NCBI RefSeq assembly: GCF_021272185.1
Contig: NZ_JAJSEC010000001.1
Location: 682,001-746,000 of the forward strand
Origin: Roseivivax sp. GX 12232
GTDB lineage: Bacteria > Pseudomonadota > Alphaproteobacteria > Rhodobacterales > Rhodobacteraceae
Reading direction: 5' to 3'
DNA: 64,000 nt
Shown here: positions 2 to 32,598 of the stretch, piece by piece
Position numbering within the stretch: position 1 is the first letter of the stretch
Layout: every line of letters starts with the position of its first letter
Notes under the pieces: model-generated
Databases searched by the model: none
Told to the model about the DNA's origin: nothing
The model's input: the letters and a program-made list of their open reading frames with translations, nothing else
Program-made: the position numbers and the translations under genes

Positions 2-634
2 TACAAGTCCCGCGTCGTCAAACCCTTCTTCCGCGACCACTTCGCCCGGATCGACCGGCAGGTGGTGCTGGTCGATGCCCTGGGCGCGGTGCACAAGGGG
101 CCCGAGGCGCTCGAGGATCTGACCCGCACCATGGCGGAGATCCTGACCGCCTTCCGCCCCGGCCCCAATGCCTTCCTGAGCCAGCTTCTGCGCGGGCGGC
201 GGGTGGAGCGCATCCTCTTCGCCGCGACCAAGGCCGACCACCTGCACCACAGCCAGCACGACCGGCTGGCGCGGCTGATGCAGGCGATGACGCGGGCGGC
301 CTCGGACCGGGCGGAGTTCGCCGGTGCCAAGACCCGCGCCATGGCACTCGCGAGCCTGCGCGCCACCGTCGAGGAGAGCCGCGAGGTCAAGGGCGAACGG
401 CTCGACTGCGTGCGCGGGCGGCTCCTGGAGACCGGCCGCGAGGCGGCGCTCTGGCCGGGCGAGCTGCCCGAGGATCCGCGCGCGCTCCTGAACGGCGGCG
501 CGGGCGACTGGCTGGCGGGCGACTACGGCGGCATGGGCTTCGCGCCCGCACCCCTGTCGCTGCGCCCCGGCGACGGGCCGCCGCACATCCGGCTCGACCG
601 CGCCGCCGAATTCCTGATCGGAGACCGCCTGTGA
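2..634 (+). CDS. YcjX-like P-loop protein (DUF463), 5' end cut by window
   Basis: The reading frame is open from base 2, so the gene starts before the window and only the C-terminal 210 residues are visible. The segment begins YKSRVVKPFFRDHFARIDRQ followed by VVLVDAL, typical of the YcjX/DUF463 family of predicted nucleoside-triphosphate-binding proteins. The Walker A part is outside the window. YcjX is usually encoded beside YcjF and linked to envelope stress; its biochemical role is unsettled. The stop overlaps the GTG start of the next gene (GTGA), so the pair is probably translationally coupled. Confidence 0.85.
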   Translation, partial: YKSRVVKPFFRDHFARIDRQVVLVDALGAVHKGPEALEDLTRTMAEILTAFRPGPNAFLSQLLRGRRVERILFAATKADHLHHSQHDRLARLMQAMTRAASDRAEFAGAKTRAMALASLRATVEESREVKGERLDCVRGRLLETGREAALWPGELPEDPRALLNGGAGDWLAGDYGGMGFAPAPLSLRPGDGPPHIRLDRAAEFLIGDRL

Positions 635-1653
635 GCGAGCGCAAACGCCCCGTCCTGATCGAGCTCGACGAGAGCAGCCCCGCCGCCCCCGGCCCCGCCG
701 AGGCGCCGCCGGTGCCCGAGACCGGCCCGGGCGGCGCCCCGCCCGAAGGCGCGGCCATGGCCGCCGCCGCGGCGCTGGCGGGGCGCCGCACCTCGCGGCT
801 GGCGCGCTGGTTCTGGGGGCTTGCAGGCGCGATCCTGGTCTCGGTCCTCTCGGTCGCGGCCTGGGGCTTCGTCACCGGGCTGATCGCCGCCAACCCGATC
901 CTCGGCTGGCTGATGACCGGGCTTTTCGGGCTGTTCCTGCTGGTCTGCCTGATGATCGCGGTGAAGGAGATGTCGGCCTTTGCCCGGCTGGCGCGGCTCG
1001 ACCGGCTGCAGCGCAAGGCCGAGACGGCGCGCTCGGGGCAGAACCTCGACAGCGCGCGCGAGGTGATCTCGGGGCTGATGACGCTTTATGCGGGCCGCGA
1101 GGATGCCCGCTGGGGCCGCGAGCGGCTGGCCGAACGCCAGGCCGAGGTGCTCGACGCCGAGGCGCTGCTGGCGCTGGGGGAACGCGAGCTGCTCGCCCCG
1201 CTCGACGCCCGCGCCGAGGCCGAGGTCAAGGCGGCCGCCCGGCAGGTCGCGGCGGTCACCGCGCTGGTGCCCCTGGCCTTCGCCGATGTGGCCGCGGCGC
1301 TCTCGGCGAACCTGCGGATGATCCGGCGCATCGCCGAGATCTACGGCGGCCGCTCGGGCACGCTCGGGGCCTGGCGGCTGACGCGGGCGGTCTTCTCGCA
1401 TCTCGTAGCCACCGGCGCGGTGGCGGTGGGCGACGACATGATCGAGCCGATCCTCGGCGGCGGGCTTTTGGCGCGGGTGTCGCGGCGCTTCGGCGAGGGG
1501 CTGGTGAACGGCGCGCTGACCGCCCGGGTGGGCGTCGCCGCCATGGAGGTCTGCCGCCCCCTGCCCTTCACGCCCGAGCGCCGCCCCTCGGTGCGGCGCA
1601 TCGTGACGACCAGCCTGACGGGGCTGTTCGAGAAGAAGTCCGGCGGGGCCTGA
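631..1653 (+). CDS. YcjF/TIGR01620-family membrane protein (DUF697)
   Basis: A 340-residue protein starting with GTG inside the stop region of the ycjX-like gene. The N-terminal 45 residues are Pro/Ala/Glu-rich. Two hydrophobic segments follow at about residues 66-88 and 90-113 (FWGLAGAILVSVLSVAAWGF and ILGWLMTGLFGLFLLVCLMI). The C-terminal half is a soluble Ala/Arg/Glu-rich domain ending in the DUF697-like region (VGVAAMEVCRPLPF). Length and order agree with the YcjF family, inner-membrane proteins of uncertain function that co-occur with YcjX. No terminator is evident before the convergent downstream gene other than the hairpin near 1796-1822. Confidence 0.82.
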   Translation: MSERKRPVLIELDESSPAAPGPAEAPPVPETGPGGAPPEGAAMAAAAALAGRRTSRLARWFWGLAGAILVSVLSVAAWGFVTGLIAANPILGWLMTGLFGLFLLVCLMIAVKEMSAFARLARLDRLQRKAETARSGQNLDSAREVISGLMTLYAGREDARWGRERLAERQAEVLDAEALLALGERELLAPLDARAEAEVKAAARQVAAVTALVPLAFADVAAALSANLRMIRRIAEIYGGRSGTLGAWRLTRAVFSHLVATGAVAVGDDMIEPILGGGLLARVSRRFGEGLVNGALTARVGVAAMEVCRPLPFTPERRPSVRRIVTTSLTGLFEKKSGGA

Positions 1654-1795
1654 GGCGGGTTCGGCGGCGGCCTTTTGGCGGTCGCTTGGCCGAAGCGGTG
1701 CGCCGATGGCGGGGCGTTCGGCGCGAAGGGCTACCCGTAGACAGGCCCGGCCTCCCGCCCCACGCGCAGCCGCCCGCTATCCGACCCGAACAAAC

Positions 1796-2618: not shown

Positions 2619-5600
2619 ATGTGCGCCGACACCGTGACCGACACGCCTGACTACAAGGACACGCTGAGCCTTCCCAAGACCGATTTCCCGATGCGCGCGG
2701 GCCTGCCCAAGCGCGAACCCGACTGGCTCGCCCGCTGGGAGGAGATCGGCGTCTACGACCGCCTGCGCGACAAGGCCGAGGACCGCCCGGCCTTCACGCT
2801 GCACGACGGCCCGCCCTATGCCAACGGCCACCTGCACATCGGCCACGCGCTGAACAAGGTGCTGAAGGACATGGTGGTGCGCTCGCAGCAGATGATGGGC
2901 CGCGACGCGCGCTACATCCCCGGCTGGGACTGCCACGGCCTGCCGATCGAATGGAAGATCGAGGAGCAGTACCGCGCCAAGGGCATGGACAAGGACGCCG
3001 TCGACATCGTCGACTTCCGGCAGGAGTGCCGCAAGTTTGCCGAGGGCTGGATCGACGTGCAGCGCGACGAGTTCAAGCGGCTCGGCGTCACCGGCGCCTG
3101 GGACCGGCCCTATCTGACCATGGACTACCGCGCCGAGCGCATCATCGCCGGCGAGTTCCAGAAGTTCTTGATGAACGGCACGCTCTACCAGGGCTCCAAG
3201 CCGGTCATGTGGTCGCCGATCGAGAAGACCGCCCTGGCCGAGGCCGAGGTCGAATACCACGACAAGGAAAGCTTCACGATCTGGGTGAAATTCCCGGTGG
3301 TGGACTTCTCCCTGCCCGAGGCCGACGTCTCGGACGAAGAGGCCAGCGACGCCGAACGCGAGGCCGTGGTGCAGGCCCGCGCCGAGGCGCGCGAGACCTT
3401 CGTCGGCGCCAATGTGGTGATCTGGACCACCACGCCCTGGACCATCCCCTCGAACAAGGCCGTGGTCTTCGGCGAGGACTTCTCCTACGGGCTCTACGAG
3501 GTCACCGGCACGCCCGAGGAATGCTGGGCCTCGGTGGGCGAGCGGTTCATCCTGGCCGACAAGCTGGCCGAGCAGACCTTCACCCGTGCCCGCCTCGAGG
3601 AAGGCCAGTGGCGCCGCCTCCGCGACGTGACGCCCGCGCAGCTTGCGGCGCTGAAGCTCGCCCACCCGCTGGCCGGGGCCGAGGGCGGCGAGGGCGAATG
3701 GGACGGGCTGCGCGACTTCCGCGCCGCCGATTTCGTCACCGACGAGGAAGGCACCGGCTTCGTGCATTGCGCGCCCTCGCACGGGATGGAGGAATACGAC
3801 CTCTACCGCGGGCTGGGGATGCTCGACCAGGTGATCACCTACAACGTGATGGACGACGGCTCCTTCCGCGAGGACCTGCCGTTCTTCGGCGGCACCCGGA
3901 TCCTCAAGGAGAACGGCAAGGAGGGGAACGCCAACAAGGCGGTGATCGACAAGCTCGTCGAGGTCGGCGGCCTCTTGGCGCGCGGCAAGATCAAGCACTC
4001 CTACCCGCATTCCTGGCGCTCCAAGGCGCCGGTGATCTACCGCAACACGCCGCAATGGTTCGCCGCCATCGACCGCGACGTGGGCGACGGGCAGGACGCG
4101 CTCGGCACCACGATCCGAAAGCGCGCGCTGACCGCCATCGACCAGGTGACCTGGACGCCGCGTTCGGGCCGCAACCGCCTGCACGCGATGATGGAGGCGC
4201 GGCCCGACTGGGTGCTCTCGCGCCAGCGCGCCTGGGGCGTGCCGCTGACCTGCTTCACCAAGAAGGGCGCGCGGCCGACCGACCCGGGGTTCCTCCTGCG
4301 CGACGAGACCGTGAACGCCCGCATCCTCGAGGCCTTCGAGACCGAGGGCGCGGACGCCTGGTACAAGGAAGGCGCCAAGGAGCGTTTCCTCGGCAACGAC
4401 TACGACCCGAACGACTGGGAGCAGGTCTTCGACATCCTCGACGTCTGGTTCGACAGCGGCTCGACCCATGCCTTCGTGCTGGACGACCGCGAGGACGGCG
4501 CCGCGGACGGGATCGCGGACCTCTACCTCGAGGGCACCGACCAGCACCGCGGCTGGTTCCACTCCTCGCTCCTGCAAAGCTGCGGCACCCGCGGCCGGGC
4601 CCCCTATCGCGGCGTGCTGACCCATGGTTTCACGCTCGACGAGAAGGGCAACAAGATGTCCAAGTCGCTGGGCAACACCATCGTCCCCGAGGAGGTGGTG
4701 AAGCAATACGGCGCCGACATCCTGCGGCTCTGGGTCAGCCAGTCGGACTACACCGCCGACCAACGCATCGGGCCGGAGATCCTGAAGGGCGTGGCCGACA
4801 GCTACCGCCGGCTGCGCAACACGCTGCGGTTCCTCTTGGGCAATGTCGCGCATTACGACCCCGCCCAGGCGGTGGCCCCCGCCGATATGCCCGAGCTGGA
4901 GCGGCTGATCCTGCACAAGCTCGCGGTGCTCGACGGCGTGGTGCGCGAGGGCTACGACGCCTATGACTTCCAGAAGGTCTTCCAGGCGATCTTCAACTTC
5001 GCCACCATCGACCTGTCATCCTTCTACTTCGACATCCGCAAGGACGCGCTTTACTGCGATCCCGAGGACAGCCTGGTGCGGCGCTCGGCGCTGACGGTCC
5101 TGGACCTGCTCTTCGAGCGGCTGACCACCTGGCTCGCGCCGGTCCTGGTCTTCACCATGGAGGAGGTCTGGCTCGAACGCTTCCCCGGGGCGGGCAGCTC
5201 GGTGCACCTGCAGGACATGCCCGAGACCCCGGCCGACTGGCGCGACGACGCGCTGGCCGAACGCTCCGAGGTGGTGCGCGCGGTGCGCCGCGTGGTCACC
5301 GGCGCGCTCGAGGAGAAGCGCCGCGACAAGGTGATCGGCGCCTCGCTCGAGGCCGCGCCTGTGGTGCATCTGACCGAGGAGGCCGCGGCGGTCGTGACCA
5401 ACCCCGAGACCTTCGCGACGCTCTGCATCACCTCGGACATCACGCTGACCACCGATCCCGCCCCCGAGGGCGCCTATCGCCTGGCGGAGGTGCCGGGCAT
5501 CGCGGTGGTCTTCGCCGAGGCCGAGGGCCAGAAGTGCCAGCGCTGCTGGAAGATCCTGCCGGACGTGGGCCAGCACGCCCATACCGATGTCTGCGCGCGT

Positions 5601-5621
5601 TGCGACGCCGCGCTCGACTGA
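2619..5621 (+). CDS. ileS: Isoleucine--tRNA ligase
   Basis: Cytosolic class I aminoacyl-tRNA synthetase that charges tRNA-Ile. The 1000-residue length is normal for the bacterial type. The HIGH signature is HLHIGH at residues 71-76, in the context PPYANGHLHIGHALNK. The KMSKS loop is at 679-683. The editing (CP1) domain occupies the middle, with WTTTPWTIP near residue 270. Four cysteines at 973, 976, 992 and 995 (CxxC-x15-CxxC) form the C-terminal zinc site. GAGGA precedes the ATG. The stop is followed at once by two large hairpins before dnaX. Confidence 0.98.
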   Translation: MCADTVTDTPDYKDTLSLPKTDFPMRAGLPKREPDWLARWEEIGVYDRLRDKAEDRPAFTLHDGPPYANGHLHIGHALNKVLKDMVVRSQQMMGRDARYIPGWDCHGLPIEWKIEEQYRAKGMDKDAVDIVDFRQECRKFAEGWIDVQRDEFKRLGVTGAWDRPYLTMDYRAERIIAGEFQKFLMNGTLYQGSKPVMWSPIEKTALAEAEVEYHDKESFTIWVKFPVVDFSLPEADVSDEEASDAEREAVVQARAEARETFVGANVVIWTTTPWTIPSNKAVVFGEDFSYGLYEVTGTPEECWASVGERFILADKLAEQTFTRARLEEGQWRRLRDVTPAQLAALKLAHPLAGAEGGEGEWDGLRDFRAADFVTDEEGTGFVHCAPSHGMEEYDLYRGLGMLDQVITYNVMDDGSFREDLPFFGGTRILKENGKEGNANKAVIDKLVEVGGLLARGKIKHSYPHSWRSKAPVIYRNTPQWFAAIDRDVGDGQDALGTTIRKRALTAIDQVTWTPRSGRNRLHAMMEARPDWVLSRQRAWGVPLTCFTKKGARPTDPGFLLRDETVNARILEAFETEGADAWYKEGAKERFLGNDYDPNDWEQVFDILDVWFDSGSTHAFVLDDREDGAADGIADLYLEGTDQHRGWFHSSLLQSCGTRGRAPYRGVLTHGFTLDEKGNKMSKSLGNTIVPEEVVKQYGADILRLWVSQSDYTADQRIGPEILKGVADSYRRLRNTLRFLLGNVAHYDPAQAVAPADMPELERLILHKLAVLDGVVREGYDAYDFQKVFQAIFNFATIDLSSFYFDIRKDALYCDPEDSLVRRSALTVLDLLFERLTTWLAPVLVFTMEEVWLERFPGAGSSVHLQDMPETPADWRDDALAERSEVVRAVRRVVTGALEEKRRDKVIGASLEAAPVVHLTEEAAAVVTNPETFATLCITSDITLTTDPAPEGAYRLAEVPGIAVVFAEAEGQKCQRCWKILPDVGQHAHTDVCARCDAALD

Positions 5622-5627
5622 GCCTGC

Positions 5628-5688
5628 GGCGCCCCACAAAGTTAAATAACTTTGTGGGGCGCCAAAATCTTATCTAAGATTCTGGCGC
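5628..5688 (+). other. Two tandem palindromes sharing a GGCGCC junction, between ileS and dnaX
   Basis: Hairpin 1 (5628-5663) is a perfect 17-bp inverted repeat, GGCGCCCCACAAAGTTA, around AA. Hairpin 2 (5659-5688) is a 14-bp repeat, GCGCC-AAAATCTTA, around TC with one A-C mismatch. The right arm of the first overlaps the left arm of the second by five bases (GCGCC at 5659-5663), so full pairing of both cannot coexist. The cores are AT-rich in very GC-rich DNA. No U-run follows, so a classical terminator is not obvious; they may attenuate, process or end the ileS transcript. They lie 7 bp after the ileS stop. Confidence 0.7.
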
Positions 5689-5742
5689 GGCCCGCGCCCC
5701 GAGCACTGGACAAGTCCGCAGAGAGACAGGACCATCCCGCGC

Positions 5743-7521
5743 ATGAGCGACACGCCCACAGCCCAAGCCTACCAGGTCCTCGCTCGGAAATACCGGCCCG
5801 AGACCTTTGCCGATCTGGTCGGCCAGGACGCCATGGTGCGGACCCTGAAGAACGCCTTCGCCGCCGACCGCATCGCCCAGGCCTTCATCATGACCGGCAT
5901 CCGCGGCACCGGGAAGACCACCACCGCGCGGATCATCGCCAAGGGCATGAACTGCATCGGCAGCGACGGCTCCGGCGGGCCCACGACCGACCCCTGCGGC
6001 CAGTGCGAGCATTGCCAGGCGATCATGGAAGGCCGCCATGTCGACGTCCTCGAGATGGACGCGGCCTCGAACACCGGCGTCGGCGACGTCCGCGAGATCA
6101 TCGACAGCGTGCACTACCGGGCGGCCTCGGCGCGCTACAAGATCTACATCATCGACGAGGTTCACATGCTCTCCACGAGCGCGTTCAACGCGCTCCTGAA
6201 GACGCTGGAGGAACCCCCCGCCCATGTGAAGTTCATCTTTGCCACCACCGAGATCCGCAAGGTGCCGGTCACGGTGCTCTCGCGCTGCCAGCGCTTCGAC
6301 CTGCGCCGGATCGAGCCCGAGGTGATGATCGGGCTGTTGCGCCGCATCGCCGACCGCGAGGAGGCGCAGATCGCCGAGGACGCGCTGGCGCTGATCACGC
6401 GGGCGGCCGAGGGCTCGGCGCGGGATGCGACCTCGCTTCTCGACCAGGCGATCAGCCATGGCGCCGGCGAGACCACCGCCGAGCAGGTCCGCGCGATGCT
6501 GGGGCTGGCCGACCGGGCCCGCGTGCTCGACCTCTTCGAGACCATCATGCGCGGCGATGCGGCGGGCGCCCTGGCGGAACTCTCGGCGCAATACGCCGAT
6601 GGCGCCGATCCCATGGCGATCCTGCGCGACCTCGCCGAGATCACCCATTGGATTTCCGTGGTGAAGATCACCCCCGAGGCGGTCGAGGATCCGACCATCT
6701 CGCCCGAGGAGCGCACCCGCGGCCAGAGCCTGGCGCAGTCGCTCGGCATGCGGCCCCTGACGCGCATGTGGCAGATGCTGTTGAAGGCGCTCGAGGAGGT
6801 GGCCGCCGCGCCCAACGCCATGATGGGCGCCGAGATGGCGGTGATCCGGCTGACCCATGTGGCCGAGCTGCCCTCGCCCGAGGAGCTGCTGCGCAAGCTC
6901 CAGTCCGAGAGCCCGCCTCCCGGCCCGCCGGGCGGCGGTGGCGGCGGTGCCGGGCTGGGCGCCCGGGGCGGTGCCTCGGCGCAGCAGGGTGCCCAGGGCG
7001 CGCCCGCCCCCACCCATGCCGGGCCTTCGGGCCCCTCGGCGCAGTCGGGCTCGGCCGTCCGCGCGCTGGCCGCCGAGGAGGCCTTGGCGCGCTATCCGAC
7101 CTTCGAGCATGTGATCGAGCTCATCCGCGCCCATCGCGACGGGGTGCTGCAGGTCGAGGTCGCGAAATACATCCGCCTTGCCGCCTATCAGCCCGGCCGG
7201 ATCGAGTTCACCCCGACCGAGGATGCGCCCCAGGACCTGGCGCAGCGGCTCGGCGCGGCGCTCACCCGTTGGACCGGCAACCGCTGGGCGGTCACCCTGG
7301 TCAACGGCTGCGAGGCGCCGACGATCTACGAGACCGAACACGCCGCGGAGCTGGCGCTTGAACAGGAGGCCGCTGGCCACGACATGGTGAAGGCGGTCCT
7401 CGAGGCCTTTCCCAAGGCGCGCATCCTCAAGGTGCGCACTCCCGAGGAAGAGGCCCAGGAGGCCGAGGCCGAGGCGCTGCCCGAGGTCGAGGACGAATGG
7501 GACCCCTTCGAGGACGACTGA
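5743..7521 (+). CDS. dnaX: DNA polymerase III subunit gamma/tau
   Basis: Clamp-loader ATPase of the replisome, 592 residues. Walker A is GIRGTGKTT at 52-60. The zinc-binding cysteines are C71, C85, C88 and C91. The Walker B region reads IYIIDEVHML and the sensor region reads KFIFATTE. A Gly/Pro/Ala-rich linker at about 388-430 separates the AAA+ core from a C-terminal tau-like domain and an acidic end (EDEWDPFEDD). I see no poly-A slippery heptamer for programmed frameshifting. It starts the conserved dnaX-ybaB-recR group. Confidence 0.96.
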   Translation: MSDTPTAQAYQVLARKYRPETFADLVGQDAMVRTLKNAFAADRIAQAFIMTGIRGTGKTTTARIIAKGMNCIGSDGSGGPTTDPCGQCEHCQAIMEGRHVDVLEMDAASNTGVGDVREIIDSVHYRAASARYKIYIIDEVHMLSTSAFNALLKTLEEPPAHVKFIFATTEIRKVPVTVLSRCQRFDLRRIEPEVMIGLLRRIADREEAQIAEDALALITRAAEGSARDATSLLDQAISHGAGETTAEQVRAMLGLADRARVLDLFETIMRGDAAGALAELSAQYADGADPMAILRDLAEITHWISVVKITPEAVEDPTISPEERTRGQSLAQSLGMRPLTRMWQMLLKALEEVAAAPNAMMGAEMAVIRLTHVAELPSPEELLRKLQSESPPPGPPGGGGGGAGLGARGGASAQQGAQGAPAPTHAGPSGPSAQSGSAVRALAAEEALARYPTFEHVIELIRAHRDGVLQVEVAKYIRLAAYQPGRIEFTPTEDAPQDLAQRLGAALTRWTGNRWAVTLVNGCEAPTIYETEHAAELALEQEAAGHDMVKAVLEAFPKARILKVRTPEEEAQEAEAEALPEVEDEWDPFEDD

Positions 7522-22971: not shown

Positions 22972-24345
22972 ATGTTCCTGTCGGTCTTCGAGATGTTCAA
23001 GGTCGGGATCGGCCCGTCCTCCTCGCACACCATGGGCCCGATGGTCGCCGCGGCGCGCTTTCTCGCCGCGATGCGGGCCTCGGACTACAGCTTCCGCGGG
23101 CTGCGCGCCTCGCTGCATGGCTCGCTGGCCTTCACCGGGCACGGCCATGCCACCGACCGCGCGGTGATCCTGGGGCTCGCGGGCTTTGCCCCCGACAGCT
23201 ACGACGCCGAGAAGGCCGAGGCCGCGCTCGCGCGCATCGCCGAGACCAAGCGGGTGACGCCCGAGGGGCTGCCCGAGCTGACCTTCGACCCCAAGACCGA
23301 CCTGGTCTTCGACTATGACGAGAGCCTGCCCGGCCATGCCAACGGCATGCGGCTCGCCGCGACCGACGCCCAGGGCGACGTGCTTTTCCAGGAGGTCTAT
23401 TACTCCGTCGGCGGCGGCTTCGTCCTGACCGAGGCGGAACTGGCCGAGGGCCGCGACACCGACCAGGGCCCGCCGGTGCCCTACCCCTTCAAGACCGGCG
23501 AGGAGATGCTGGGCATGGCCCGCGCCTCGGGGCTCTCGGTGGCGCAGATGAAACGCGCCAACGAGCTGTCGCGCGGCCCGCGCGCCAAGCTCGACCAGGG
23601 GCTGACCCGGATCTGGGAGGTCATGGAGGGCTGCATCGACCGCGGGCTCGCGGGCGACGGGCGGCTGCCGGGCGGGCTCGAGGTGCGCCGCCGGGCCGGC
23701 GCGATCCGCGAGGCGCTCGAGGCCGAGCGCGGCATGAACCTCACCGCGCCGCATACGATCAACGACTGGATTTCGACCTATGCCATGGCGGTCAACGAGG
23801 AGAACGCCGCCGGCGGCCAGGTGGTCACCGCGCCGACCAACGGCGCGGCGGGCGTGGTGCCCGCGACCATCCGCTACTGGCTCGACCATGTGCCCGGCGC
23901 CTCGCGCGAGCGGCTGCCGGACTTCCTGCTGACCGCCGCGGCGATCGGCGGGCTGGTGAAATACAACGCCTCGATCTCGGGCGCCGAGGCCGGCTGCCAG
24001 GCCGAGGTCGGCGCCGCGGCGGCCATGGCGGCGGCGGGGCTCTGCGCGGTCCTGGGCGGCACCCCCGAGCAGGTGGAGAACGCCGCCGAGATCGCGCTCG
24101 AACATCACCTCGGCATGACCTGCGACCCGGTGAAGGGCCTCGTGCAGGTGCCCTGCATCGAGCGCAACGGCCTTGGCGCGATCAAGGCCGTCTCGGCGGC
24201 CTCGCTGTCGCTGAGGGGCGACGGGCAGCACCTCGTGCCGCTCGATGCCTGCATCGAGACCATGCGCCAGGTCGGTGCCGACATGTCCGAGAAATACAAG
24301 GAAACCTCGCTCGGCGGGCTGGCGGTCAACGTGCCCAATTGCTGA
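22972..24345 (+). CDS. sdaA: L-serine ammonia-lyase (single-chain, iron-sulfur type)
   Basis: A 457-residue enzyme converting L-serine to pyruvate and ammonia. The ATG at 22972 is chosen because AAGGGAGAA precedes it and the protein then begins [20 protein letters not shown], the family start; the frame stays open much further upstream. The N-terminal beta domain (SSSHTMGP) is followed by the alpha domain with [13 protein letters not shown] and the [4Fe-4S] cysteines in [15 protein letters not shown] and VPCIERNG. It precedes the pyruvate dehydrogenase-like operon by 59 bp with no visible terminator, so it may be co-transcribed with it. Confidence 0.96.
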
Positions 24346-24404: not shown

Positions 24405-25370
24405 ATGGTGGCGGACGGCAGTTCAGACAGGGAAGACGCGCTGACCGACTACCGGCGGATGCTCCTGATCCGCCGCTTCGAGGAAAAGGCCGGCCAGCTT
24501 TTCGGCATGGGCCTGATCGAGGGCTACTGCCATCTCTGCATCGGCCAGGAGGCGGTGGTCGCGGGGCTCGAACGGGCGCTGCGCCCGGGCGACCGGCGCG
24601 TCGCCTCCTACCGCGCGCATGGACACATGCTGGCCGCCGGAATGGAGCCGGGCCGGATCATGGCCGAGCTTCTGGGCCGCGCGGCGGGCTATTCGCGGGG
24701 CCATGGCGGCTCGATGCATATGTTCAGCCCGGACGACGGCTTCTACGGCGGCCACGGGATGCTGGCCGCCCAGGTGCCGATCGGCGCCGGGCTGGCCTTC
24801 GCCGAGCGTTACAGGCGGTCGAACAACATCACCGTGGCGAGCTACGGCGATGTGGCCGCGAACCTCGGGCCGGTGGCCGAGACCTATCACCTGGCCGCGC
24901 TCTGGGCGCTGCCGCTCCTCTTCGTGATCGAGAACAACCAGGACGGCGCGGCGCGCAGGGGCCCGGGCCTCAGCGACCGCGCGGCGGCCCATGGCATTCC
25001 CGTGGCCCGGGTCGACGGCATGGATGTGACCCGCGTCGCCGAGGCCGCCGAGACCGCGGCGCTGCACGTCCGCGCCGGCAAGGGCCCCTATCTGATCGAG
25101 GCGCAGACCTACCGCTACCGGGGCCATTCCATGGCCGATCCGGCGAAATACCGCACCCTCGACGAGATGCAGAAGGTCCGCGCCGAACGCGACCCGATCG
25201 CCCGCGAACGCGCCCGGCTGGTCACCGAGGGGCTGTCGGAGAAGACCCTCAAGGAGGTCGACGCCGAGGTGAAAGAGGTTGTGACCGCGGCGGCGGAGTT
25301 CGCCCGCGCCAGCGCCCCCGCCCGCCCCGAGGGCATCGCCCCGGCGCTTTCCGCCGAGGTGCCGCGATGA
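24405..25370 (+). CDS. Pyruvate dehydrogenase E1-alpha-like protein with altered TPP motif
   Basis: A 321-residue homologue of PdhA. The fold is well kept: MLLIRRFEEKAGQLFGMGLI, QVPIGAGLAFAERY, and the C-terminal loop YRYRGHSMADPAKYRT. The thiamine-diphosphate motif GDG-x-NN reads GDV (Gly148-Asp149-Val150), and the next consensus AANQGQ is AANLGP. After ENN (176-178) the usual QYAMGT is QDGAAR, and a few residues of the following loop are missing, removing the Tyr that contributes to Mg/TPP binding. HLYIGQEA is HLCIGQEA. Catalysis as in E1 is therefore doubtful. The stop overlaps the next start (ATGA). Alternative: an E1 of changed substrate or cofactor use. Confidence 0.85.
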   Translation: MVADGSSDREDALTDYRRMLLIRRFEEKAGQLFGMGLIEGYCHLCIGQEAVVAGLERALRPGDRRVASYRAHGHMLAAGMEPGRIMAELLGRAAGYSRGHGGSMHMFSPDDGFYGGHGMLAAQVPIGAGLAFAERYRRSNNITVASYGDVAANLGPVAETYHLAALWALPLLFVIENNQDGAARRGPGLSDRAAAHGIPVARVDGMDVTRVAEAAETAALHVRAGKGPYLIEAQTYRYRGHSMADPAKYRTLDEMQKVRAERDPIARERARLVTEGLSEKTLKEVDAEVKEVVTAAAEFARASAPARPEGIAPALSAEVPR

Positions 25371-26662
25371 GCCGCGAGATCACCATGCCCGCGCTCTCGC
25401 CCGCCATGGAGGAGGGCCGCCTGGCGCGCTGGCTCGTCGCCGAGGGCGACTTCGTCGAGGAAGGCGACGTGATCGCCGAGATCGAGACCGACAAGGCGGT
25501 GATGGAGTTCGAGGCCCCGGCCTCGGGCGTGATCGACGCCTTCCTGGTCACCGAGGGCGGCGCGATGATCGCCGTCGAGACCCCAATCGCCCGGCTGCGC
25601 GACGGGGGCGCTGCGACGCCGCCCCCGGCGGAGGCACCCGCGCCGACGCCCCCGGCCAAGACCCGCCCGCGCCGCGCCCGCGCCGAGGCCCCGCAGGAGA
25701 CCGTCCGCGAGGCGCTCCGCCAGGCGCTCATCGCCGAGATGCGCGAAGACGAAAGCGTCTTTCTCATCGGCGAGGAGGTCGGCGCGGCCCATGGCGCCTA
25801 CAAGGTCAGCCAGGGGCTGATCGAACGCTTCGGCGCGGCCCGGGTGATCGACGCGCCACCCTTGCATTCGGCGATCATGGGGCTGGCCACGGGGGCTGCC
25901 TTCGCCGGGCTGCGCCCGGTGGTCGAGGTGCTGAACCTCTCCTACGCGCTGCAGGCGCTTGATCCCTTGATCAACTCCGCCGCGATGACCGGCAGCATGT
26001 CGGGCGGCACGCTCGACTGCCCCCTGGTCCTGCGCGGCCCGCATGGCGCGGGCGAGCGCATGGGCGCCCAGCACAGCCATGATTTTGCGGCCCTTCTGGC
26101 GCGGGTGCCGGGACTGAAACTGGCCGCCCCCTATGCCGCCGAGGATGCGGGGGCGCTCTTGCGCGCGGCGATCCGCGACCCCGGGCCGGTGGTGCTTCTG
26201 GAAAGCGACCGGCTATACGGCCAGGCCTTCGAGGTGCCCGAGGCCCCCGCCCTGCCCTGGGGCCAGGCGCGGATCTGGCGCGCGGGCGAGGATGTGACGC
26301 TGGTGGCCTATGGGCCCGCGGTGGGGCTGGCCCGGACGGCCGCCGAGCGGCTCGAGGACGAGGGCGTCTCGGCCGAGGTCATCGACCTGCGCTGCCTGCG
26401 CCCCTGGGACCGCGAGACGCTTTTGGAGAGCCTGAAGAAGACCCACCGCTGCGTGGTGATCGAGGAAGGCTGGCCGGTTGCAAGCTTCGGCAAGGAGATC
26501 GCGACAACGCTCGTGCAGGAGGGCTTCGACTGGCTCGACGCGCCCATCGCCACGCTCGGGGCGGCAGACCTCGCCCTGCCCGCGGCGGGGCCGCTCGAGG
26601 ATGCCGCCCTGCCCGGGGTCGAGGCCGTCCTGCGCGCCGCGCGGGCGGTGCTTTACCGATGA
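25367..26662 (+). CDS. Lipoyl domain fused to E1-beta-like protein lacking the catalytic Glu
   Basis: A 431-residue PdhB-like protein. Residues 1-80 are a lipoyl domain with the lipoylation motif DKA at Lys43 (IETDKAVMEF). An Ala/Pro/Arg linker (85-107) leads to the transketolase-like pyrimidine domain (108-290) and C-terminal domain (300-430). The lipoyl fusion is normal in alphaproteobacterial PdhB. The segment that reads TPITEHGF in PdhB is APPLHSAI here, putting His167 at the position of the conserved Glu that activates the TPP aminopyrimidine. GAQHS with His236 is kept. The protein probably pairs with the E1-alpha-like subunit but may be inactive. ATGA overlaps join it to both neighbours. 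Confidence 0.85.
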   Translation: MSREITMPALSPAMEEGRLARWLVAEGDFVEEGDVIAEIETDKAVMEFEAPASGVIDAFLVTEGGAMIAVETPIARLRDGGAATPPPAEAPAPTPPAKTRPRRARAEAPQETVREALRQALIAEMREDESVFLIGEEVGAAHGAYKVSQGLIERFGAARVIDAPPLHSAIMGLATGAAFAGLRPVVEVLNLSYALQALDPLINSAAMTGSMSGGTLDCPLVLRGPHGAGERMGAQHSHDFAALLARVPGLKLAAPYAAEDAGALLRAAIRDPGPVVLLESDRLYGQAFEVPEAPALPWGQARIWRAGEDVTLVAYGPAVGLARTAAERLEDEGVSAEVIDLRCLRPWDRETLLESLKKTHRCVVIEEGWPVASFGKEIATTLVQEGFDWLDAPIATLGAADLALPAAGPLEDAALPGVEAVLRAARAVLYR

Positions 26663-26910
26663 GCACGGTCGAGGTCCTGGGCCGCGACGCCGCGCGCGAG
26701 GCTTACCGGGTCCGCACCGAGGCGGGCACGGCGCTGGTGCCCGAGGTCTTGATGCAGGACCTGCGCCCCGGCGAGCGGCCGAGCCACCAGGAGGCCTACG
26801 AATGGATCGCCCGCCACCGCCGCGAGATCGCGCGGGCGGTCGCGGCGCTGGCCTCGGGCGCGGAGCCGCGCGCGCCTTTCGAGATCGTGACCCTGGAGCG
26901 CGGCGCATGA
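26659..26910 (+). CDS. 83-residue protein within the PDH-like operon, unknown function
   Basis: Small soluble acidic/basic protein, MSTVEVLGRDAAREAYRVRT at the start, then a predicted helix around residues 44-68 (SHQEAYEWIARHRREIARAV). I do not recognise it with confidence. The strand-strand-helix layout and the central RxxIxxAV helix recall small DUF1488-type proteins, but this is only a weak impression. It overlaps the gene before (ATGA) and the gene after (ATGA at 26907-26910), so it is made together with the E1-like and E2-like proteins and may be part of the same assembly. Confidence 0.7.
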   Translation: MSTVEVLGRDAAREAYRVRTEAGTALVPEVLMQDLRPGERPSHQEAYEWIARHRREIARAVAALASGAEPRAPFEIVTLERGA

Positions 26911-27434
26911 GCCGGGTCTTCGCCTCGCCCTATGCGCGCCACCTCGCCAAGGCGCGGGGGATCGACCTTGCGGGCCTGCGCGGGTCGGGCCCCGGCGGGC
27001 GGATCGTGGCGGCGGACTTGGAGAAAGCGGCGGAGGTGGCAGCGGCGGCGCAGTCGGAGCAAGCGCAAGCGCGGGTCGAGCCAGCGCAGGCGCCGAGCCC
27101 CACGCCGGGCGACCTGCCCCCGGCCCCCGCCGCCATCCTAAGACGCAGCGTCGAGACCGCCGGACCTTTGAGCGCCGCCGAGCGCGCGGCGCGGATCGCC
27201 GCGGTGGCGGAGGCCACAGGCGCGGGCGCGCTGCCGCTGGTCGACCTGGCCGATCTCGGCGTCGAAAGCCTCGATCCCGCCCTGCCGGAGGGAGCCTCTC
27301 TCGCGCTGGGTGTCGGAGAAATGGCAGGCCGCCTTACGCTGGCCCTGGCGCTGGCGCCGCGGGGCCCCGCGGCCGAGGCCGCCGCGCGGCTCCTCGACCG
27401 CATCGCCCGGGCGCTTGCGGCACCCGGGGAATAA
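26907..27434 (+). CDS. Truncated E2-like protein: intact subunit-binding domain, degenerate acyltransferase end
   Basis: A 175-residue protein. Residues 4-40 are a textbook peripheral subunit-binding domain (SPYARHLAKARGIDLAGLRG then SGPGGRIVAADLEKA), which in E2 proteins holds E1 or E3. A Gln/Ala/Pro linker follows to about residue 90. Residues ~108-173 keep the outline of the last part of the E2 catalytic domain: LVDLADLGVESLDPALPEGA (compare SNLGMFGI...INPPQ) and LALGVGEMAG (compare ILGVG). The DHRxxDG active-site motif is APRGPAA at 150-156, so the catalytic His and Asp are absent. No lipoyl domain. Most of the ~230-residue acyltransferase core is missing, so trimer formation is doubtful. 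Confidence 0.8.
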   Translation: MSRVFASPYARHLAKARGIDLAGLRGSGPGGRIVAADLEKAAEVAAAAQSEQAQARVEPAQAPSPTPGDLPPAPAAILRRSVETAGPLSAAERAARIAAVAEATGAGALPLVDLADLGVESLDPALPEGASLALGVGEMAGRLTLALALAPRGPAAEAAARLLDRIARALAAPGE

Positions 27435-27444
27435 GGCCCGGGCC

Positions 27445-28254
27445 TTAGCCCTTGCCGGCGAACAGGTGATCCATGCTGACCGAGGGCTGGTCGCAGCCCG
27501 CTTCGCCCACGATGCGCGCGGGCACGCCCGCCACGGTCTTGCAGGGCGGCACCTCGTCCAACACCACCGAGCCCGCCGCGATCCGCGAGCAATTGCCGAC
27601 CCGGATGTTGCCCAGCACCTTGGCGCCCGCGCCGATCAAGACGCCGTCGCCGATCTTGGGGTGGCGGTCTTCCTCTTCCTTGCCGGTGCCGCCCAGGGTC
27701 ACCGAATGCAGCATCGAGACGTTGTCGCCCACGCGCGCGGTCTCGCCGATGACGATGGAATGGGCGTGGTCGATCATGATGCCCCGGCCGATCTTGGCGG
27801 CGGGGTGGATGTCGACGCCGAAGACCTCGGAGCAGCGCATCTGGAAAAGCGCCGCCAGGTCGCGCCGTCCCTCGCGGTAGAGCCAGTTCGCCACGCGGTA
27901 GGATTGCAGCGCCTGGAAGCCCTTGAAAAACAACAGCGGCTGCACGAAGCGGTGGCAGGCCGGGTCGCGCTCGTAGACCGCGACGATATCGGCCCGCGCG
28001 GCCAGCGCCAGGTCGGGGTCCGAGCCGTAAGCCTCGTCGCAGATCTCGCGCAGGATCTGCTCGGAAATCTCGCCCGAGGTCAGCTTCACCGCGATGCGGT
28101 AGCTCAGGGCCCGCTCGATGGTCTGATGGTGCAGCACCGAGTAATGCACCATCCCGCCGAGCAGCGGTTCGTCAGAGACGATTTCCTCGGCTTCTTCCAT
28201 GATCCGGGTCCAGACCGGATCGATTTCTTTGAGGTTCGTCCTGGTTTCCGCCAT
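27445..28254 (-). CDS. cysE: Serine O-acetyltransferase
   Basis: A 269-residue enzyme making O-acetylserine from serine and acetyl-CoA, the first step of cysteine synthesis. The N-terminal helical domain (SATase_N, residues 10-140) is followed by left-handed beta-helix hexapeptide repeats with DIHPAAKIGRGIMIDHAHSI, VSMLHSVTLGGTG and KVLGNIRVGNCSRIAAGSVV. His in DHAHS and the nearby Asp are catalytic-site residues of the family. The stop lies 10 bp from the stop of the E2-like gene (convergent). GGAGAG precedes the ATG. Confidence 0.96.
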   Translation of the reverse strand: MAETRTNLKEIDPVWTRIMEEAEEIVSDEPLLGGMVHYSVLHHQTIERALSYRIAVKLTSGEISEQILREICDEAYGSDPDLALAARADIVAVYERDPACHRFVQPLLFFKGFQALQSYRVANWLYREGRRDLAALFQMRCSEVFGVDIHPAAKIGRGIMIDHAHSIVIGETARVGDNVSMLHSVTLGGTGKEEEDRHPKIGDGVLIGAGAKVLGNIRVGNCSRIAAGSVVLDEVPPCKTVAGVPARIVGEAGCDQPSVSMDHLFAGKG

Positions 28255-28683: not shown

Positions 28684-31600
28684 TCAGGCGGTGATCACCA
28701 GTTCCGCCGCGGGCCCCGGGCCGAAGCGCGCCGAGAGCTGCGCCACCGAAAGCGTCACCGGCCCGCCCGCCAGGTCCGCAGCGCGGTCGGGCCCGGGGTA
28801 GGTCCAGGCCGGCGTCACGACCTCGGCCTCGCGCAGAAGCACGCCGGCGCGGCTGATCCGCACCAAGTAGGCCTCGCGCTCCTCGCCCAGCGGCACCTCG
28901 GGCCGGTCCCAGTCGTCGCCGTCGATCCGGGTCCGGCGGATCCAGCCGATCGCCAGGTCGCCGCCCGATCCCTGGGCGCTCAGGTGCACCGGCGCATAGG
29001 GCCGCAGGCCGATCCCCTCGAAGGCATGCACGACATGGGCATAGGTCGGATCGTCGATGGGGCGCGAGGCCGGGCCGTAGCGGTAATGCCGGGGCTGGCG
29101 CCGCTCGCTCGCGGCGAGGTCGATCTGCTCCAGCGCTCCGCCCAACCGCACGATGCGCGAGCCGGCGGGCCAGACCTCGGGCATCAGCGCGTCGCTGCCC
29201 GCCTGCCCGCGCAGCCGGGCCGAGAGAAGCCAGCGCCCGCCGCCCAGCGCCTGGACGTCGCGGGCCTGGAAGACCTCCCAGTTGCCGGGGCTGCCGTCGC
29301 CCAGCGCGAAGGCATTGCCGCCGCCGAAGAGCGCCGCCTCCGAGATCGACTGCAGCGCCCCCGGCCCCAGCGCCACTTCGAGCGCCGGGCCCATGTCGTA
29401 GCGCCCGGCGGGCGCGCGCAGCAGCGGGCTTTGCGTCTCGCCCATGAGCGCCCGGCGGGGCAGCAGCCGGTTGAGCCGGTAGTCCGCATCCTCGAGCGCC
29501 GAGAAGAGCGCCACCGGCCCCGGCCCGGGCCAGGGCTCGGCGCTGGCGGCGACATGCGGGGCATGGGGCAGCTCGTCCCCGGTCAGGAGCGGCAGGTCGA
29601 GGAAGACCGCCGTGACCGGGGTCGCGGCCAAATAGGGGGTCAGCCGCGCCGGACTCTCGGCCATGGCGGCGGGAGTATAGGCGGCGGGGTCGATGCGCAC
29701 CGCCTCGATGAGTTGCCGGTCGGTGACCTCGACCCGGTCGACGCGGGCGGTGACGGGGCCGCCCGGGCCGGGCAGCGCCAGCACGTCGCCCGCGCGCAGG
29801 CCCAGCCCCGAGGGCGGCAGGGCCAGGCTCAGCCTGTCGCGCGCCAGCCGCGCCTCGGCGAGCCAGCGCTCCACCACCTGCCGCCCCTCGGCGCGGGTCA
29901 GCGCCAGGGTGACCTCGCTTTCCGCCACCGCATGGGTGCGGTCCTGCGGCAGGACGGCCTCTTCGGCGACGGTGTCGTGATCGCCCTCGGCCTCGTAGAA
30001 ATGCAGCCGCACCCGCCCCGACAGCGCCGCCTCCCCGGCGCGGGTCTGGACCAGCGGCTGGTCGAGGTCGGGGTGCTCGGCGAGCCGCTCGGGGTCGAGC
30101 GCCTGTGCCTTGCGCCCCTCGCGCATGAGGAAGACCAGGCAGCCCTCGCGCTCCACCGCGTCGAAGCCATAGACCAGCATCAGGGGCTGCAGCGCCTGGC
30201 GGGCGTCCGAGACCTCGGGGATCACATAGCCGCGCACCATGCCCACGAGGTCGCTGGTGTCATAGGCGGTCAGCCCCGCGCCCGCGCAGATCTCGGCCAC
30301 GACATCCGCCAGCCGCCGCGAGGAGAGCCGCCCGGTGATCCAATGCCCGCGCCGGTAGTTGACCCCGTCGCTCCAGCGTTCGGTGAGGCTCGGGAACCAG
30401 GGGAAGGGCCGCGCGTCCCAGGCCCAGACGAAGGCGCGGGACATCTCGACCATGGGCCCGCCGTAGAGCGGCGAGACCGGGTTGTTGGCGGGATCGCCCC
30501 AATGCAGGTGCATGGCGCGCAGATACTGGCGCTGGATGTCCTCGTCCGGGAGCCCGTTCGAGCCGCGCGGCAGGGCGCTTTCCGAGGACTTCGGGTCAAG
30601 GAAGACATTCGGCTGGTTGGTGCCCTTGTCGACGGCGGGGCAGCCAAGCTCGGTGAACCAGATGGGTTTCGAGCCCGCGACCCAGGCGGTCGGCGCGGCC
30701 TGGCGGATGCCGCCGATGCGGTCGTGGTGCGAATGGCTCCACCAGCCCTGCAGGTCCTTGGTGCGGAACACCCAGTCCTCGCCATGGGCGCTGTCGCGGA
30801 TCGGGCTGCGGCGTTGGGCGGCCTCGGCCTCGGGGCTCGAGTAATACCAGTCGAAGCCCTCGCCGCCCTCGATATTGGCGTCGAGATAGGACAGCTCGTG
30901 CACCCGGTGCCAGCCGGCCTCCGCGTCGAGGTGGTCCGCGCCCTCGCGCCAGTCGGAGAGCGGCATGTAGTTGTCGATGCCGATGAAATCCAAGTCCGGG
31001 TGTGCCCAGAGCGGGTCGAGGTGGAAATAGAGATCCCCCGAGCCGTCCTCGGGCCGGTGGTTGGCGTATTCGGACCAGTCGGCGGCATAGGTCAGCTTGA
31101 CCTCGGGGCCGAGGAGCGCGCGCACCTCGACCAGCAGATCGGTGAGGCCCGTGACAAAGGGAAAGCCCTCGTGGTCGCGGATCGCGGTCAGCCCGCGCAG
31201 CTCGGAGCCGATGCAGAAGGCCTCGACCCCGCCCGCCGCCCGGGCCAGCGCGGCCTGGTGCAGGATGAAGCGCGAAAAGCTCCATTCGGCGGGGCCGGAA
31301 TAGGTGATCTTGCGCCCGCTGACGGTGAAATCCGCCGCCCGCGCGGTGCCGAGGAAAGCCGCCACCTCGGCCCGGGCCAGCGCGGTGCCCTCGGTCGAGC
31401 CCGCCTGCCCCGGCGCGCGGGCCAGGGTGATCCGCCCACGCCAAGGGAGCGGCGGCTGTTCGGCGCGGCCATAGGGGTCGGTCTTGCCGTTGCCCGCGAG
31501 CTGGTCCATCAGGATGAAGGGGTAGAACATCACCGCCTTGCCGCGCGCCTTCAGCGTCTCGATCGCCTCGATCACCGCGCCGTCGGCGGGGGTGCCGCCG

Positions 31601-32598
31601 TAGACCGGCTTGTCGTCCAGATGCGGCACCTGGAAGGCGCTGGTACGGGTCAGCCCCGCGACCGACCAAGGCATGCCGCCGGCCTCGTCGGTGCGCTGCT
31701 CGACCTTGGGGCGCAGCTCGCAGAGCCCGCAGCGCAGGTCATCGCCGAACCAGCTGACCACCAGCGACACCGCCTCGCAGCCCGGCGCCTGGTCGCCCAG
31801 CGCATCGAGCGCGCGGGTCAGATCGGCGACCTCGGCGGCGGTGGTGACATTGATGGCGCCCGAAGGATCGCTGCCGCCGCCGTAGTAGAGCTTCGATGTG
31901 GCCAGCGTGTATTCGCCGCTGCCCGGCAGAAGCGCCACACCTTTCAGGAGCGCGGGCATGTCGTCCTCGGCGGTGGCGGGTTTGACCACCTCGAAGGAGA
32001 GCTGCGGCACCCGGTTGCCGAAATCCTCGAGCTTCAGATCCTCGATCACCACGTAGGCGGTGCCGCGATAGGCGGGCACCTGGCCCGCGCCCTCGACCGC
32101 CTCCATCTTGGGGTCGGGCATCTGGTCCGCATCGCCGGTGTAGACCCGGATCATCAGGTCCTCGAGCGAGATCTCCACCCCATCCGCCCAGGCCCGGGTG
32201 ACCCCGGCGATGGGCCCTTCGCAGAGCGCCAGCGCCAGGCTGACCGAGTAGTGGTAGGTGGTGATCTCGGGCGTCGCGGGCGCGCCCTTGCCGCCGTCGC
32301 CGCCCTCGGTGCGGGTGGTCTCGGTGAAGCCGGTGGTCCAGATCACCTGCCCGCCGACCCGCGCCCGGCCCCAGAGCCGCGGGATCGCGCGGCCCTCGCC
32401 GGAATTGGCCAGGTGGAAGCGTTCGACCCGGCCGGTCTCGACCCTCTCGCTGCCCTGGCCGAGCAGCGACTGGTCGATCGCCCGGCCCAGCGCCGCCCCC
32501 GCGAAGCGCCCCCAGGCCACCATGGAGAGCCCCAGGAAGGAGCCGCCGAGCGAGCCGCCGAAGGCCGCGCCCGCGGCGGAGAGAAGGATGGTTGCCAT
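28684..32598 (-). CDS. GTA gp15: large baseplate/host-specificity protein (megatron type)
   Basis: A 1304-residue tail-tip protein, the last and largest gene of the gene transfer agent cluster. The N-terminus has a Gly/Ala-rich hydrophobic segment (MATILLSAAGAAFGGSLGGS). The middle (about 400-780) resembles a glycoside-hydrolase (TIM-barrel) domain, e.g. DLDFIGIDNYMPLSDWREG and WVAGSKPIWFTELGCPAVDK. The C-terminal half is a tail-hub/baseplate region. In RcGTA this protein acts in host contact and cell-wall penetration. The ATG overlaps the gp14 stop (ATGA). Confidence 0.93.
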   Translation of the reverse strand: MATILLSAAGAAFGGSLGGSFLGLSMVAWGRFAGAALGRAIDQSLLGQGSERVETGRVERFHLANSGEGRAIPRLWGRARVGGQVIWTTGFTETTRTEGGDGGKGAPATPEITTYHYSVSLALALCEGPIAGVTRAWADGVEISLEDLMIRVYTGDADQMPDPKMEAVEGAGQVPAYRGTAYVVIEDLKLEDFGNRVPQLSFEVVKPATAEDDMPALLKGVALLPGSGEYTLATSKLYYGGGSDPSGAINVTTAAEVADLTRALDALGDQAPGCEAVSLVVSWFGDDLRCGLCELRPKVEQRTDEAGGMPWSVAGLTRTSAFQVPHLDDKPVYGGTPADGAVIEAIETLKARGKAVMFYPFILMDQLAGNGKTDPYGRAEQPPLPWRGRITLARAPGQAGSTEGTALARAEVAAFLGTARAADFTVSGRKITYSGPAEWSFSRFILHQAALARAAGGVEAFCIGSELRGLTAIRDHEGFPFVTGLTDLLVEVRALLGPEVKLTYAADWSEYANHRPEDGSGDLYFHLDPLWAHPDLDFIGIDNYMPLSDWREGADHLDAEAGWHRVHELSYLDANIEGGEGFDWYYSSPEAEAAQRRSPIRDSAHGEDWVFRTKDLQGWWSHSHHDRIGGIRQAAPTAWVAGSKPIWFTELGCPAVDKGTNQPNVFLDPKSSESALPRGSNGLPDEDIQRQYLRAMHLHWGDPANNPVSPLYGGPMVEMSRAFVWAWDARPFPWFPSLTERWSDGVNYRRGHWITGRLSSRRLADVVAEICAGAGLTAYDTSDLVGMVRGYVIPEVSDARQALQPLMLVYGFDAVEREGCLVFLMREGRKAQALDPERLAEHPDLDQPLVQTRAGEAALSGRVRLHFYEAEGDHDTVAEEAVLPQDRTHAVAESEVTLALTRAEGRQVVERWLAEARLARDRLSLALPPSGLGLRAGDVLALPGPGGPVTARVDRVEVTDRQLIEAVRIDPAAYTPAAMAESPARLTPYLAATPVTAVFLDLPLLTGDELPHAPHVAASAEPWPGPGPVALFSALEDADYRLNRLLPRRALMGETQSPLLRAPAGRYDMGPALEVALGPGALQSISEAALFGGGNAFALGDGSPGNWEVFQARDVQALGGGRWLLSARLRGQAGSDALMPEVWPAGSRIVRLGGALEQIDLAASERRQPRHYRYGPASRPIDDPTYAHVVHAFEGIGLRPYAPVHLSAQGSGGDLAIGWIRRTRIDGDDWDRPEVPLGEEREAYLVRISRAGVLLREAEVVTPAWTYPGPDRAADLAGGPVTLSVAQLSARFGPGPAAELVITA

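Follow-up and report, generated by a model that had tools for sequence, protein, structure and literature searches.

The closest described relative of the locus analysed here is the alphaproteobacterial alpha2-beta2 pyruvate dehydrogenase (PDH) complex, PdhA-PdhB-PdhC. The locus, a four-gene operon at positions 24405-27434 of a 64,000-nucleotide stretch of Roseivivax sp. GX 12232 (NCBI RefSeq assembly GCF_021272185.1, contig NZ_JAJSEC010000001.1, positions 682,001 to 746,000 of the forward strand; the whole stretch is called the window below), shares with this complex the gene order, the fusion of a lipoyl domain to E1-beta, the subunit-binding domain and the place near cysE, but differs from it in that the acyltransferase domain is reduced, the lipoyl domain of E2 is lost, and the Glu of E1-beta and the Gly and Tyr of E1-alpha are replaced. 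A second likeness is that to the E3-binding protein (E3BP, or protein X) of fungi and mammals, which is also derived from E2 and keeps the subunit-binding domain, and whose region homologous to the acyltransferase is inactive and, in fungi, reduced; the fungal E3BP has been described as an inactive E2-derived protein that bears a peripheral subunit-binding domain and has a reduced core fold (PMC10156792). In contrast to protein X, the lipoyl domain sits here on the E1-beta chain and the operon appears to have no working E2, so a PDH core could only be provided by AceF. The AceE-AceF-Lpd system of the same genome serves the same pathway step with an E1 of the homodimeric type, which belongs to another family and has intact motifs. 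Finally, for the E1-alpha subunit of the Bacillus subtilis PDH, a coupling of the pyruvate level to cell division has been proposed (PMC8270655), but that protein is part of a catalytic complex and comes from another lineage.

The reading preferred here, with a probability of roughly 0.6, is that, in the Roseivivax lineage, an ancestral PDH operon has become a non-catalytic assembly, presumably a lipoyl/E3-binding one, and it is very probable that its genes are maintained without PDH activity. A pseudoenzyme is typically a lone protein; in the species of the window, each of the three catalytic components of this central metabolic complex appears disabled, and selection retains the complex across nine related species. 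The comparison included 58 operon regions in addition to the window, eight from other Roseivivax genomes (the genus being represented by nine genomes, including the source genome of 4.12 Mb, 38 contigs and 99.69% completeness) and 50 from outside the genus. For the E1 subunits, a canonical set of 44 rows was used, from which two loci at contig ends (L085, L086), one with a partial E1-alpha (L114) and one where no E2 was found (L102) were left out; L073 (genome G266) and L119 (G381), both partly altered, were kept apart from the canonical rows. The roles of the motifs compared are established: they comprise the Mg and thiamine pyrophosphate (TPP) ligands, the TPP-activating Glu, the catalytic His and the lipoyl Lys.

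The largest change was found in the E2-like protein. In the window, this chain has lost its own N-terminal lipoyl domain and starts at the subunit-binding domain (residues 4-39), which is followed by a linker and a reduced acyltransferase remnant at about residues 75-175, with APRGPAA aligned at the position of the DHRxxDG motif. The DHR motif is found in 0/9 E2-like proteins of the genus and in 49/49 E2 proteins read outside it (50 loci; L102 shows no E2). Moreover, the Pfam acyltransferase domain (2-oxoacid_dh) was not detected in the window protein (E<=1), nor in 8/8 relatives from the genus, and was recognised in both controls from outside the genus, L073 and L119, at about 1e-63. At the same time, the E3_binding domain (PF02817) is kept in all nine genus proteins (8.2e-16 in the window), the lengths of which range from 155 to 324 amino acids (aa), depending on the chosen starts. 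The structural model of the window protein (predicted local distance difference test, pLDDT, 78.7; predicted template modelling score, pTM, 0.52) consists of the subunit-binding domain and a small strand-helix-strand-strand-strand-helix domain, the latter corresponding in the alignment to the C-terminal region of the E2 catalytic domain. A Foldseek search with this model gave two matches at E<=0.001, both to integrative models containing E2 chains; these were followed by matches to subunit-binding domains (4qoy_E, E 7.3e-3, TMt 0.92) and by weak ones to E2 cores. Judged from the sequences, the change in E2 is far larger than the swap of a motif, since the lipoyl domain is absent and little of the acyltransferase domain is left; with the latter missing, acetyl transfer to coenzyme A (CoA) by the products of this operon is very unlikely.

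The alterations of the E1 subunits are more graded. The E1-alpha-like protein of the window keeps R70, D149, N177, N178 and H241 and carries G150V and Y180D, with the remainder of the YAMGT loop lost, so that its TPP/Mg motif reads GDV...ENNQD in place of GDG...NN with a following Tyr; its score with TIGR03182, the family of catalytic PDH E1-alpha subunits, lies below the curated cut-off of 393.85 bits. Residue 150 is Val in two, Ala in four and Gly in three of the nine genus species and Gly in 44/44 canonical rows; Tyr180 is kept in 3/9 species, and Arg70, Asp149, Asn177, Asn178 and His241 are kept in 9/9. The YAMGT loop is intact in 27 of the 29 loci L228-L256, the exceptions belonging to G005 and G266. 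In the E1-beta-like protein of the window, His167 replaces the Glu of TPITE, Gln196 and His236 are kept, and the lipoyl domain (about residues 3-77; Biotin_lipoyl 1.1e-18) contains Lys43; this chain scores above the curated cut-off of 454 bits of the PDH E1-beta family NF008854. The Glu is present in 5/9 genus species, in 44/44 canonical rows and also in L073 and L119, and has been lost in the other four species (His, His, Trp, Trp). Lys43 and Gln196 are kept in 9/9, and His236 in 7/9, with Leu in two. Of the columns that do not vary among the 44 canonical rows, the window is changed in 36 of 166 for E1-alpha (14 in L073, 7 in L119) and in 57 of 201 for E1-beta (16 in L073, 14 in L119). Of the 394 family genomes, 347 gave a full-length match to the lipoyl-E1-beta profile; one E1-beta match (G176:C21:27235-28596) includes a TAA.

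The original prediction, made from the letters of the window, had described four overlapping PDH-like genes in which the three active sites were altered by GDV (Val150), the loss of the QYAMGT segment, His167 and APRGPAA. All four frames and the three ATGA overlaps linking them were confirmed, and the altered letters are real when set against the Gly and Glu of the canonical rows and the DHR of the E2 proteins outside the genus. That all three sites are altered holds for the species of the window and also for its nearest relatives, where the letters are different ones; the E2 loss alone is universal in the genus, with the Glu lost in 4/9, and the implied fixed set of altered residues proved too simple, as the states of the altered sites vary from species to species. 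Lys43 of the lipoyl domain and the subunit-binding domain are intact, as had been stated. A phosphorylation-type loop had also been named: the conserved loop is present, but it is the ordinary loop of E1-alpha, and its canonical second Ser (position 244) is Ala in 9/9 genus rows.

The same residues bear on another explanation, namely that the operon encodes an altered enzyme in which an E1 binding Mg-TPP would carry out some reaction with no acyl transfer to CoA (non-oxidative decarboxylation, carboligation, or an oxidation ending at the lipoyl arm). The Asp and Asn ligands of Mg and the E1-alpha His retained throughout the genus, the E1-beta His retained in seven species, the Glu in five and the Tyr in three are all consistent with this explanation, and glyoxylate carboligase works without the usual Glu. 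However, no single new active site is conserved genus-wide, the Glu having been replaced by His in one pair of species and by Trp in another and Gly150 by Val or Ala in six; the loop varies in both length and letters, and the E1-beta His236 became Leu in two species. An altered enzyme is considered quite unlikely. TPP activation in the Glu-less clade appears doubtful.

The genome carries a second PDH system. On contig C36, AceE (PDH_E1_M 6.7e-107; motifs GDGE and NGEGLQHEDG intact), AceF (lipoyl, E3_binding and 2-oxoacid_dh domains, the last at 8.7e-80) and a lipoamide dehydrogenase adjoin, and they are likely to be the working PDH of this genome. The lipoamide dehydrogenase (L208, G000:C36:1-9500; 3-1748, minus strand) has an N-terminal lipoyl domain of its own, and its frame runs up to the contig end. 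AceE was found above the cut-off in 28 of 59 genomes (the nine Roseivivax genomes and 50 further ones that have the 83-aa marker described below), among them 9/9 of the genus and also G266 and G381, so that all 11 genomes with altered sites carry it. In the remaining 17 carriers, the sites read in E1-alpha, E1-beta and E2 show the normal letters; AceE thus permits the loss but does not compel it. Between the species of the window and its nearest relative, AceE is 95% identical and the E1 subunits of the operon are about 72% identical. Three further two-subunit or fused E1 relatives (40%, 36% and 30% identity to the E1-alpha-like protein) lie on contigs C35, C38 and C12 of the source genome, one of them in a 730-aa frame that also holds an E1-beta-like part; these are probably other 2-oxo acid dehydrogenases.

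The operon is kept with open frames in 9/9 genomes of the genus (P0001 relatives at 58-100% identity), and selection on it was estimated with pairwise codon models, part-wise in three sister pairs. For the pair L068-L069, both Glu-less, the ratio of non-synonymous (dN) to synonymous (dS) substitution, omega, was 0.049 for E1-alpha, 0.083 for E1-beta, 0.105 for the 83-aa gene and 0.164 for the E2-like gene, and omega=1 was rejected for the operon genes with twice the log-likelihood difference (2dlnL) at 32-235; the neighbours sdaA, rpiA and cysE gave 0.005-0.040 in this pair, and sdaA gave 0.029-0.055 across the six pairs compared. For L065-L067, where the Glu is kept, the values were 0.082, 0.043 and 0.089 for E1-alpha, E1-beta and the E2-like gene, the 83-aa gene being inestimable. 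In the whole-gene comparison, omega=1 was rejected for all genes and pairs (2dlnL at least 30). Part-wise omega was 0.001-0.12 for the lipoyl domain, the subunit-binding domain, three parts of E1-alpha and two parts of E1-beta, the lowest values reflecting saturated dS. The complex has thus changed fast but is still constrained, including the lipoyl arm and the domain that would grip E3 or E1. The original prediction of a pseudo-enzyme complex maintained beside a true PDH fits these results: omega between sister species is about 0.04-0.16 where it can be estimated, no homologue in the genus is interrupted by a stop codon, and aceE-aceF-lpd lies elsewhere in the genome, with AceE in 9/9. By sequence and codon comparison, the operon encodes pseudoenzymes in the accepted sense, i.e., homologues of enzymes whose catalytic residues are lost and whose genes are kept by selection.

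Slow decay has to be weighed at this point: AceEF would have made the operon redundant, and the genes would be pseudogenes in progress, the frames of which are not yet broken. The dN of the E1-alpha, E1-beta and E2-like genes, several times that of sdaA, rpiA and cysE in the same genomes, the very variable length of the E2-like protein (for the starts chosen) and the presence of AceE wherever sites are altered all agree with such decay. Nevertheless, the frames are open in nine of nine species, and omega is far below 1 in the pairs that split after the loss of the E1-beta Glu in the three-gene tree. Moreover, 200 runs of a crude neutral simulation of 929 codons of L068 gave, at 0.5 substitutions per site, 10 stops on average and never fewer than 1, and at 1.0, 13 on average and never fewer than 4; the 17 other genomes with AceE have a normal operon at the sites read. 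Decay is for these reasons regarded as unlikely.

With regard to history, cysE is present in the stretches fetched for the eight other loci of the genus without exception and, outside the genus, in those of 16 of the 21 loci compared (50 had been fetched), including L073; since this neighbour is common to the loci of the genus and of related genera, the locus is the ancestral pdhA-pdhB-(83 aa)-pdhC operon in its place and not a later copy. A paralogue beside a normal operon was rejected, the operon being in the ancestral place and its other relatives in the genome reaching at most 40% (E1-alpha) and 43% (E1-beta) identity. An assembly error or contamination was also ruled out by the occurrence of the same operon in 9/9 genus genomes, in two without the 83-aa gene. 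Neither chance nor a mistaken annotation accounts for the pattern. In the tree of cysE, sdaA and AceE (19 taxa), the genus forms one clade (100/99) with G266 as its sister (98/97), and the four Glu-less species form one clade (100/98). The E1 tree joins the four Glu-less species as well, with genus branches that are much longer and a program warning that long branches meet. Two independent losses of the E1-beta Glu, as suggested by the tree of AceE only, were not adopted, as neither the three-gene tree nor the E1 tree suggests them. In L073 (1841-5613), the operon of G266, an otherwise normal-looking PDH operon has the E1-alpha loop QYDTTP in place of QYAMGT; similarly, the operon of L119 (1728-5694) looks normal except for QHDLGM at this position. 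G266, as the sister of Roseivivax, may show the first step of the change, and the loci form a graded series that starts with the normal operon of other genera, passes through G266, where only the E1-alpha loop is altered, and ends with the full loss. The operon of L066 (G006, 2904-6252) keeps its place between sdaA and cysE but has the opposite orientation to that in the rest of the genus loci, so it must use a different promoter region.

Several points weigh against the conversion of the operon into a non-catalytic assembly. The Glu is kept in five of nine species, three of which also have the E1-alpha Tyr, so that decarboxylation by their E1 may still be possible. In the tree of AceE alone (27 of 28 rows, without G354), G266 is again the sister, and G005 and G008 are placed at the base of the genus, which would imply two losses of the Glu. 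Many dS values are saturated, and omega for E1-beta could not be estimated between the window and its nearest relative, L062. The acyltransferase remnant is weakly constrained (omega 0.13-0.36, 2dlnL 7.6-18.9), which also fits a slow relaxation, and the reduced domain is modelled at a pTM of 0.52 only. The dN of the operon is several times that of its neighbours, with the E1 genes at about threefold or more in sister pairs; the exception is L065-L067, where E1-gene dN is only 1.4 to 1.9 times that of sdaA. The 83-aa gene was not found in two of the nine genus loci (L064, L066). Finally, a role in competition or delivery is drawn by analogy.

In the proposed non-catalytic assembly, the E1-type alpha2-beta2 body would still fold and perhaps hold Mg-TPP loosely, and the lipoyl arm of E1-beta would still be lipoylated. 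The E2-like protein would act as an adaptor, with lipoamide dehydrogenase (E3) or E1 bound by its subunit-binding domain, and the acyltransferase remnant might serve for docking or oligomerisation, as in the fungal E3BP with its reduced fold. Because what remains is a body like that of E1, a lipoyl arm and a putative adaptor for E3 or E1 that is akin to E3BP, the role tentatively favoured by analogy, though at clearly less than even odds, is one in regulation or scaffolding: the assembly would compete for E3 and lipoate, or supply them, around the working AceEF complex. More speculatively, and rather unlikely in this complete form, the whole complex might have become a pseudo-enzyme, with a lipoyl-bearing E1 shell and an E3BP-like adaptor that evolved independently in bacteria by reduction of E2, sensing pyruvate or TPP or rationing E3 and lipoate to control the AceEF complex that took its place. 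The operon offers a natural experiment on non-catalytic roles of a 2-oxo acid dehydrogenase complex and may include a bacterial counterpart of the fungal E3BP. Among the titles and opening lines of abstracts in the matches listed for the open-access literature, which leaves most subscription papers outside, neither a PDH pseudo-complex nor a bacterial E3BP is described; one listed paper, on hopanoids, mentions both Roseivivax and pyruvate dehydrogenase (PMC12583986). Annotation pipelines would be expected to record the genes as those of a PDH, the E1-beta chain passing its NCBIfam cut-off.

The gene between those for the E1-beta-like and E2-like proteins encodes 83 aa and belongs to an undescribed protein family of about 80-90 aa whose members, in many of the genera of the Rhodobacteraceae, are encoded between pdhB and pdhC of a normal PDH operon. 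Its relatives (E<=0.001) were found in 52 of 394 family genomes, in nearly one genome per genus, and the gene is kept in 7/9 Roseivivax genomes. This retention of a partner of normal operons, together with the proposal for the B. subtilis E1-alpha (PMC8270655), could indicate a moonlighting job shared with the normal complex, e.g., a coupling of the pyruvate level to cell division, which would have outlived catalysis; however, the 83-aa gene has been lost in two species, and little credence is given to this possibility. No Pfam or NCBIfam family matched the protein with a convincing score, and an assignment to DUF1488 was not supported. The AlphaFold2 model of the protein has a mean pLDDT of 90.3, with no fold match in the PDB at E<=0.001. 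A TAA was counted in the 83-aa match G385:C2:799522-799770, perhaps the terminal stop only, the frame being open in L100.

Table 1 Features of the operon and its surroundings in the window
Feature	Position	Strand	Evidence
Putative PDH E1-alpha-like pseudo-subunit, 321 aa	24405..25370	+	E1_dh PF00676 2.5e-77; TIGR03182 378.6 bits
Lipoyl domain fused to putative PDH E1-beta-like pseudo-subunit, 431 aa	25367..26662	+	NF008854 532.6 bits; Biotin_lipoyl, Transket_pyr, Transketolase_C (Pfam)
83-aa protein, undescribed family	26659..26910	+	Between pdhB and pdhC in related genera
Putative E2-like adaptor, 175 aa	26907..27434	+	Pfam: E3_binding 8.2e-16 only
Serine dehydratase-like neighbour (sdaA), rate control	22972..24345	+	83-90% identity in 7/8 other genus loci
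Serine acetyltransferase-like neighbour (cysE), positional marker	27445..28254	-	In fetched stretch of 8/8 other genus loci
1304-aa frame	28684..32598	-	tblastn matches in several relatives

The names sdaA and cysE are presumptive for the two neighbours. The sdaA-like gene was not found in the fetched stretch of L063, one of the eight other genus loci compared. Beyond cysE, dksA and a large phage-like gene, presumably of a gene transfer agent (GTA), occur in several loci. The 1304-aa frame of the window, which we take to resemble a phage-tail or GTA protein, has its tblastn matches in the fetched stretches of several relatives both within and outside the genus.

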